DNA from: Sinorhizobium sp. 8-89
GTDB taxonomy: Bacteria; Pseudomonadota; Alphaproteobacteria; Rhizobiales; Rhizobiaceae
Length of the DNA: 64,000 bases
Direction: 5' to 3'
Assembly: GCF_030124325.1 (NCBI RefSeq)
Contig: NZ_JASKLR010000001.1
Span: forward strand, 770,200 to 834,199
Below the pieces are notes generated by a model. The model did not search any database. It saw nothing but the letters and a program-made list of their open reading frames with translations, and was not told where the DNA came from. Both the position numbers and the translations under genes were made by a program. Of this stretch, positions 25,306-29,936 are shown in pieces. The stretch's first letter is position 1, and each line of letters opens with the position of its first letter.

Positions 25306-25773
25306 TCAGGGAACGATGAGCCCGCCGCGATATTCAAGCTCATAGGCTTCTTCGCCATCGACGAAAATCACTTCGCGGCCGGAAAAGTGATCTGTCGCGC
25401 CGCGGCTGCTATCGACATAGCAACCATAGGCGTGCTGATACTCCATGCCGCCGAGGAAATGGCGCTTCTCGCGATACATCGTCTGCAGCGCGGCCTTGAT
25501 AACCGCGCCGGCTCGTTCAGCATCGATCAGGTCCGGACGAACGATGCGGCCGAAGTAATTCATGGCCCAGCGCGGATTGCCATCATGCCAGACCGCCTCC
25601 TGGCCGGCAAAATCCGTTCCGCCAAAATAGCTGTCGAGATAGCTCCACGCGCCGCGCTGATGTCCGATATCGCGAGAGCCGGGTCTGCAGGCGGGAAGCT
25701 CGGCACCGTTGCCGACATAGGTCTTCGATTTCGCCTCGACGATGAAGTCGGTGAGTTCCTGTATGCTGAACAT
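25306..25773 (-). CDS. DUF5680-type protein, probably SOS-regulated
   Basis: A 155-residue soluble protein starting MFSIQELTDFIVEAKSKTYV. The aromatic-rich pattern with GSRDIGHQRGAWSYLDSYFGG (shown in part) and NPRWAMNYFGRI matches the DUF5680 family, whose biochemical role is unknown to me. The ATG at 25773 was chosen because GGGAGC lies upstream and because the longer frame would run through the regulatory region. A GAAC-N7-GAAC LexA box sits 55-69 bases upstream, so expression is likely derepressed after DNA damage. It converges on lolD with no clear terminator between. Confidence 0.82.
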   Translation of the reverse strand: MFSIQELTDFIVEAKSKTYVGNGAELPACRPGSRDIGHQRGAWSYLDSYFGGTDFAGQEAVWHDGNPRWAMNYFGRIVRPDLIDAERAGAVIKAALQTMYREKRHFLGGMEYQHAYGCYVDSSRGATDHFSGREVIFVDGEEAYELEYRGGLIVP

Positions 25774-25827: not shown

Positions 25828-25850
25828 GAACAAAACAGGAACATGTGTTC
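25828..25850 (-). promoter_or_regulatory. LexA (SOS) box for the DUF5680 gene
   Basis: On the plus strand GAAC-AAAACAG-GAAC (25828-25842), i.e. GTTC-N7-GTTC on the minus strand, is the direct-repeat LexA site of alphaproteobacteria. A third half-site GTTC at 25847-25850 makes GAAC-N4-GTTC with the second half. The distance to the DUF5680 start codon (55 bases) suits promoter occlusion. Confidence 0.8.
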
Positions 25851-26032: not shown

Positions 26033-26056
26033 TTGACTATGGAACAAAAAAGGAAC
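26033..26056 (+). promoter_or_regulatory. LexA (SOS) box and -35 element for the 28-codon gene
   Basis: GAAC-AAAAAAG-GAAC at 26042-26056 is a perfect alphaproteobacterial SOS box. It starts 3 bases after TTGACT (26033-26038, with a preceding C), a good rhizobial -35. Binding of LexA here would cover the promoter of the small gene starting at 26091. Confidence 0.82.
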
Positions 26057-26090
26057 AAAAGAAAAACAATAGCGGAAAAGGAGCCATGTT

Positions 26091-26177
26091 ATGACTGATT
26101 TCGTTCGTGATCTCGCCGCCTTCGCCTCGATGAGCCTCTTCATCGCCAGCATTTCCGTGATTGCGCTCGGGTTGTAA
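26091..26177 (+). CDS. 28-residue single-helix membrane protein, predicted SOS-induced
   Basis: ATG at 26091, TAA at 26175-26177, with a perfect AAGGAG ribosome-binding site at 26078-26083 spaced 7 bases. The peptide has a short charged N-terminus (MTDFVRDL) and one hydrophobic helix from about residue 9 to the end (AAFASMSLFIASISVIALGL). A LexA box lies 35-49 bases upstream. Size, single helix and SOS control recall Caulobacter SidA, a 29-residue inhibitor of division, but I cannot show sequence homology by eye. The alternative is another small SOS or stress membrane peptide. That it is a real gene is well supported by the upstream signals. Confidence 0.75.
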   Translation: MTDFVRDLAAFASMSLFIASISVIALGL

Positions 26178-26318
26178 CCCTCCTGCTTCGGTGTGGTCTC
26201 GCAGGATAGAACCGCGCCGGGTCTGCGCTTCCTCGGATGCAGTGTTGAAAAAGACGGCGGTTCCGGTCGTTGCGCTGGACATGAGGGGCCGGAAACGGGA
26301 TATCCTCTGCTCCTACCT

Positions 26319-26410
26319 AGAGCGCTGCGCGTCTGCCAGACGCGTAAAAGGACGCTGCAGCACTTTGAATTACTGCATGTTTTTGTCCCTGAATCGGCTA
26401 CGATTGAGCA
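26319..26410 (+). repeat. Rhizobial palindromic intergenic repeat, copy 2
   Basis: The core GCGCGTCTGCCAGACGCG, then GGACGCTGCAGCACTTTG and AATTACTGCATGTTTTTG, match copy 1 at 21111-21192 with few changes. It lies in the gap before dnaE and ends about 30 bases upstream of its start, so it is probably in the dnaE leader. Confidence 0.7.
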
Positions 26411-26441
26411 AACAGGCGGTAGCGCGAATCGGAGTACGACG

Positions 26442-29936
<3,495 letters not shown>

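Follow-up and report, generated by a model that had tools for sequence, protein, structure and literature searches.

The gene for the replicative DNA polymerase of Sinorhizobium sp. 8-89 is preceded by an open reading frame (ORF) of 28 codons, which raises the question of whether so short an ORF is a gene and what its product might do. A sequence-only reading of the window (the 64,000-nucleotide stretch of contig NZ_JASKLR010000001.1 analysed here) had proposed a LexA-controlled membrane peptide and possible counterpart of SidA, the division inhibitor of Caulobacter. The elements on which that proposal stood were found in place (Table 1). A 28-codon gene with an AAGGAG site and one hydrophobic helix can be read directly from the DNA; the best 19-residue Kyte-Doolittle mean of its product is 2.23, starting at residue 8. 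The GAAC-N7-GAAC box behind TTGAC, a probable -35 element, was likewise confirmed to the exact base, its first base lying at -49 and its last at -35 nt relative to the ATG.

Table 1. Coordinates of the features discussed. Positions are those of the window unless a locus or accession is named.
Feature	Position	Strand	Basis or remark
TTGACT, probable -35 element	26033-26038	+	Read from sequence
LexA-type SOS box GAAC-N7-GAAC, GAACAAAAAAGGAAC	26042-26056	+	Sequence; strict in 74/74 distinct relatives
Degenerate third half-site AAAC	26064-26067	+	Keeps the 11-nt period of the box; GAAC in many relatives
Ribosome-binding site AAGGAG, 7 nt ahead of ATG	26078-26083	+	SD-like core in 74/74 distinct relatives
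28-residue single-helix membrane peptide MTDFVRDLAAFASMSLFIASISVIALGL, SidA-type family	26091-26177	+	ATG at 26091, TAA ends at 26177; conservation, profile tests
DUF5680 gene (PF18931)	25306-25773	-	Own LexA-type box at 25828-25842
dnaE, replicative DNA polymerase III alpha	26442-29936	+	TIGR00594 match at G000:C1:796692-799775
Phage 42-residue homologues	L272 2480-2608; L273 2480-2608; MW960030.1 5770-5895		Annotated hypothetical protein
Viral-contig 29-residue homologue	L274, L275 4001-4087		Also L252, L253 (G267)

A strict box is not by itself rare inside the window, where five were observed with 2.3 expected, a count also reached in 7 of 100 shuffles; the case for SOS control therefore rests on conservation and comparison. 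The combined pattern TTGAC-N2-8-GAAC-N7-GAAC occurred four times in the 7.06-Mb genome and its reversed control pattern not at all. Among distinct Rhizobiaceae loci, TTGAC stood no more than 12 nt ahead of a LexA-type box in 70 of 74. A consensus-based sigma-70 promoter scan gave no full match in the region of 26033, and a -10 element was not found. Elsewhere in the genome, GAACACATATGGAAC begins 63 nt ahead of the lexA start, and recA possesses a strict box farther up together with a one-mismatch GAAC-N7-GTAC closer to its start. Control of the peptide gene by the predicted LexA box is thus well supported at the level of sequence. The neighbouring DUF5680 gene is probably a second LexA-controlled gene beside the first: its promoter reads GTTC-N7-GTTC then TTTACA in 50 of the 52 gene-bearing loci (36 of 38 when only distinct ones are counted), L029 and L061 being the exceptions.

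Conservation was assessed in 95 Rhizobiaceae loci retrieved through similarity to the peptide, which represent 74 distinct upstream-plus-CDS sequences, several genomes having been reached by two routes. An ATG start and a length of exactly 28 codons were kept in 95/95. A strict box lay 20 to 75 nt ahead of the start in all 74 distinct loci, compared with 0.2% per locus in mononucleotide shuffles. The peptide was present in 24/24 same-genus genomes searched (counting the source genome), and a family-level profile search gave some match at E<=1 in 296 of 394 genomes, the tail of this list being weak. In a scan of named genomes, which gave 48 loci, the genera represented included Sinorhizobium, Ensifer, Rhizobium, Pararhizobium, Agrobacterium and Ahrensia. 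Relatives thus retain all three features whose loss would have spoken against the earlier proposal, namely the start codon, the helix and the SOS box.

The manner in which these sequences vary is that of a protein-coding gene. The dN/dS ratio was approximately 0.18 (1123 of 2080 pairs; pS 0.05-0.6), and pN/pS over all pairs was 0.27, where column shuffles gave 0.87 (minimum 0.50); entropies at the three codon positions were 0.58, 0.15 and 1.23. Antisense frame 1 across the ORF is also free of stops in 65/65 distinct sequences, so the open frame alone proves little and the codon pattern is the proof. On this pattern, ORF 26091-26177 is a protein gene under purifying selection, situated behind a predicted LexA-type promoter.

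No Pfam or NCBIfam family scored above the cut-off when searched with the window peptide. The YmiC family was considered on account of a weak match to one relative (E=0.068) and rejected; no instance was found across 115 genomes of the class. The gene had also been described as easy to miss in annotation. This holds insofar as no CDS is listed for the peptide in the S. meliloti record examined, the gene table of which is incomplete, but the ORF has probably already been detected by ribosome profiling. A translated small ORF, sORF25, is reported within the dnaE1 5'-UTR of S. meliloti 2011 (PMC10117765), and in the dnaE leader of the S. meliloti record, this peptide gene is the sole ORF of 8 to 75 codons to have a strong ribosome site. 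We take sORF25 to be probably the same ORF. The main text of PMC10117765 makes no mention of LexA or SOS. Among the literature matches listed, no paper linked SidA to rhizobia or to dnaE and none described a rhizobial SOS division inhibitor, most subscription papers being outside the search. As a side observation, dnaE and the lipoprotein-transport genes are present on CP090106.1, a 3.7-Mb S. meliloti record whose title names it plasmid pSymB, so that this record is probably the mislabelled chromosome.

The position of the gene is as constant as its sequence. The dnaE gene followed downstream on the same strand in 99/99 loci (L001-L099); this includes four from other families of the order (L025-L028) in which the peptide matches were weak (E 0.11-0.40) and dnaE was nevertheless downstream. 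In the remainder of that set (L001-L024 and L029-L099), the box was always near dnaE. When 20 further family matches were chosen so as to cover E-values between 7e-9 and 1e-3, dnaE was next in 13 and a strict box present in 13. Six of these (L252-L256 and L259) had neither dnaE in the fetched flank nor a strict box, L257 had dnaE and no strict box, and L267 had the box with no dnaE within about 1 kb. In close relatives, a conserved promoter-like block, TGGACA...GGAAACGGGATAT, separates peptide and dnaE. It may be a promoter of dnaE itself, in which case dnaE would perhaps be served by both promoters. The spacer between peptide and dnaE varies in length, being approximately 105 nt longer (window ~26315-26420) in the source genome and L007 than in L001, L002 and L005, and longer still in L013.

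The arrangement of LexA box, small membrane peptide and dnaE extends beyond the family. Leaders of the main dnaE were obtained from 110 of 113 dnaE-bearing genomes, out of 115 genomes of the class; L100 (126 nt before dnaE, leader misread) and L145 (397 nt) were kept among the 110 as misses. The combination of a strict box with a hydrophobic ORF of 22 to 50 residues, a rule framed after initial inspection of the leaders and placing relaxed boxes outside it, was found in 16/110, with none on the opposite strand and a mean of 0.1 (maximum 1) in shuffled leaders. Examples are MSEWVKDTAALFVLGAVMWSGFALTAAAQAAG (L126) and MITDFVKDFLALSSVVGVLWAVTIWSPVLGNALA (L239). Beyond the 16, a 29-residue ORF with a strict box was recognised by eye in L173, and by these criteria 93/110 leaders had no strict box with peptide. 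The strict rule picked out 16 of 24 Caulobacteraceae loci, again with none on the opposite strand, and six more carried the peptide without the strict box.

Caulobacter genomes were located through the DnaN sequence of PDB 5wce, which we take to be that of C. crescentus. The DnaN proteins of three genomes (G656, G675 and G709) were 100% identical to it, and each of these genomes possesses the strict box GAACATCTTGTGAAC and a 29-residue ORF behind GGAG directly ahead of dnaE. Counted from the ATG that follows GGAG, the ORF has 29 residues. Starts farther up in the same frame would give 33 or 40 residues in L195 and L200, and 33 residues in L196; the frame stays open far enough for a product of 33 or 40 residues in L195-L198, L200-L202, L206 and L211. 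The SidA protein has 29 residues, is induced in the SOS response, resides in the inner membrane and interacts with FtsW (PMC4211646). The sidA start codon has been corrected once (PMC4117421), which the open 33/40-residue frame may explain. The sidA locus is CCNA_02004 (PMC10769358) and C. crescentus dnaE is CC1926 (PMC1839093), two numbering schemes under which the genes would be adjacent. From length, box, position and these locus numbers, rather than from a labelled SidA record, we infer with some strength that the C. crescentus dnaE-leader ORF is SidA. Changes at FtsW F145 and A246 are published as overcoming SidA in Caulobacter. FtsW of G656 and G675 possesses F at 145 and A at 246, and the source Sinorhizobium genome has the same residues; since FtsW is conserved in general, this lends weak support.

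Ungapped placement of the window peptide against the Caulobacter peptide revealed M1, R6, an acidic residue at 7, A10, F/L at 11, S13 and F17 in common. A charged R/K-D/E pair near the N-terminus, then A-[FL]-x-S, is common to many members. The Rhizobiaceae peptide profile was compared with its own column-permuted versions, which keep its composition. Across 14 families of the class, p was below 0.05 in nine, and the Fisher sum was 1.7e-11 with L209, one of three hand-picked peptides, representing the Caulobacteraceae. Twenty Caulobacteraceae peptides scored a median of 7.0 bits versus -0.05 (sd 1.16), and 0/300 permuted profiles scored as high; for this set, L195, L200 and L214 had been missed by the pattern, L208 and L216 were not found, and peptides of the one family do not count as independent observations. 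The C. crescentus type (L195) taken alone did not match the rhizobial profile significantly (0.8 bits, p=0.25), nor did L196, L197, L199, L201 and L202 (p 0.09-0.18). The homology link to the C. crescentus type thus runs via other Caulobacteraceae members. When 3842 six-frame fragments were searched with the unpermuted profile, dnaE-leader peptides took all of the first 12 places (E 0.12-1.6, none significant alone) and the next match, L115, was a false one. A count-based version of the profile test was set aside as unconvincing because the Caulobacteraceae peptides are near-identical: 7 of the top 12 in the real search were rule-based, and 40 permuted profiles gave a mean of 0.9 but a maximum of 9. 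Taken as a sequence comparison, the homology of rhizobial and Caulobacteraceae dnaE-leader peptides is well supported.

We consider it probable that the 28-codon ORF is the rhizobial orthologue of SidA, encoding an SOS-induced inhibitor that would act at the FtsW step of division. The sequence-only reading had suggested a functional counterpart; the profile match, together with the shared site before dnaE (occupied in Caulobacter by a LexA-boxed 29-residue ORF), upholds that suggestion and makes 'orthologue' the better-fitting term, with the function extrapolated from SidA. In such a pathway, LexA bound to GAAC-N7-GAAC just behind the -35 element would keep the peptide gene off, and removal of LexA upon DNA damage would allow the 28-residue peptide to be made. 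The peptide would insert in the inner membrane as one helix and hold the divisome inactive at the FtsW/FtsI step until repair is complete. Since the peptide gene precedes dnaE, transcripts from its promoter could also run on into dnaE.

In comparison with known inhibitors, the window peptide shares with SidA the LexA box, one membrane helix, a length of 28-29 residues, similarity by profile to Caulobacteraceae peptides and (for sidA, as deduced from the locus numbers) a position directly before dnaE, and differs in that the C. crescentus type alone lacks significant similarity to the rhizobial profile. YneA, SosA and other Gram-positive SOS division inhibitors are larger than the window peptide, and we know of no dnaE linkage for them. 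Like the window peptide by prediction, these inhibitors are SOS-induced, and YneA is single-helix (PMC13396833, PMC6851548). DidA of Caulobacter is also a small single-helix division inhibitor acting after DNA damage, with 71 residues and SOS-independent (PMC4211646); the window peptide, at 28 residues with an SOS box, was not assigned to it.

A different role for an SOS-induced membrane peptide is also conceivable, for example that of a TisB-like depolariser or of a regulator of a different envelope protein. The window peptide has its small size, its helix and its predicted SOS control in common with such peptides in general. Homology and position, however, point to SidA, and the R/K-D/E pair with A-[FL]-x-S common to many members suggests a specific partner. 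We regard this alternative as unlikely.

Homologues of the peptide were also found away from dnaE. Rhizobium phage V1VFA-S encodes a 42-residue homologue, MNNDRVTLKDIARDGAAFLSMSLFIIAISIACVAMKPVVLPV, of which B1VFA carries a 95% copy and RHph_X66 a 93% match. The V1VFA-S peptide scored 22.8 bits with the rhizobial profile, against a permuted maximum of 6.4. Two IMG/VR viral contigs from one source genome encode the 29-residue MTGFIQDLCAFASMSIFVAVFLTYIGAFS or a 90% copy of it (33.3 bits with the rhizobial profile); profile A1 gave no match to viral contigs. In L274 the peptide gene adjoins genes for an Erf-type annealing protein and a RecE-like exonuclease. The same neighbour ORF, an Erf-like recombination gene, stands beside the peptide in L252, so G267 is probably the same organism as the source of the viral contigs. 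The nearest strict box was 1.2 kb off in L272 and 2.9 kb off in L274, the two loci checked. The peptide is therefore separable from both dnaE and LexA, which argues for action in trans; that phages use it to block host division is a conjecture. A further genome (G316) contains three copies (L254, L255 and L256) of a 44-residue homologue (MIRDLAALASIGLFLASFYG... and a variant) with neither strict box nor dnaE, and the ORFs upstream of L254 and L255 resemble each other, as would be expected of a repeated neighbourhood.

These homologues bear on a second alternative, that the ORF is a cis-acting leader peptide or upstream ORF whose translation tunes dnaE and whose product has no function away from the mRNA. 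The linkage to dnaE in 99/99 loci suits a leader role, and small ORFs in 5'-UTRs, including sORF25 of dnaE1, have been suggested as possible upstream ORFs in S. meliloti (PMC10117765). A peptide of this type would be confined to the dnaE leader, whereas homologous peptides occur in viral or prophage-like surroundings, unlinked to dnaE, and selection acts at the amino-acid level across the helix. Scans of this strand of the leader revealed neither an Rfam family nor a terminator-like hairpin, and the TGGACA...GGATAT block between peptide and dnaE means that dnaE may have its own start. Additionally, SidA itself works in trans, on the divisome (PMC4211646). We judge a purely cis-acting role to be slightly less probable still than a TisB-like one. 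A third alternative, in which the ORF would have arisen by chance and the LexA box would serve solely to place dnaE under SOS control, would agree with the constant proximity of box and dnaE (L001-L024, L029-L099) and with the equally open antisense frame 1 (65/65), but is already contradicted by the pN/pS ratio relative to column shuffles and by the invariant ATG and 28 codons in 95/95 loci, and is highly improbable.

SidA orthology of the rhizobial peptide also permits a broader proposal, which we offer tentatively and hold with rather less confidence. SidA would be an old alphaproteobacterial checkpoint, a LexA-controlled micropeptide at the front of the replicative-polymerase operon, such that one damage signal halts division and can boost the polymerase; rhizobial phages would have captured the peptide, freed from LexA, in order to stop host division during infection.

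The 28-residue peptide looks like an overlooked relative of the Caulobacter division-stop peptide. Rhizobial bacteroids also stop dividing, and if the proposed function is true, symbionts would gain a DNA-damage division checkpoint. A checkpoint known from Caulobacter would become tied to one chromosomal address, dnaE, and orthologues too short for similarity searches could be found by this position together with a LexA box. The viral homologues further suggest that phages may turn this very small peptide on the bacteria they infect.
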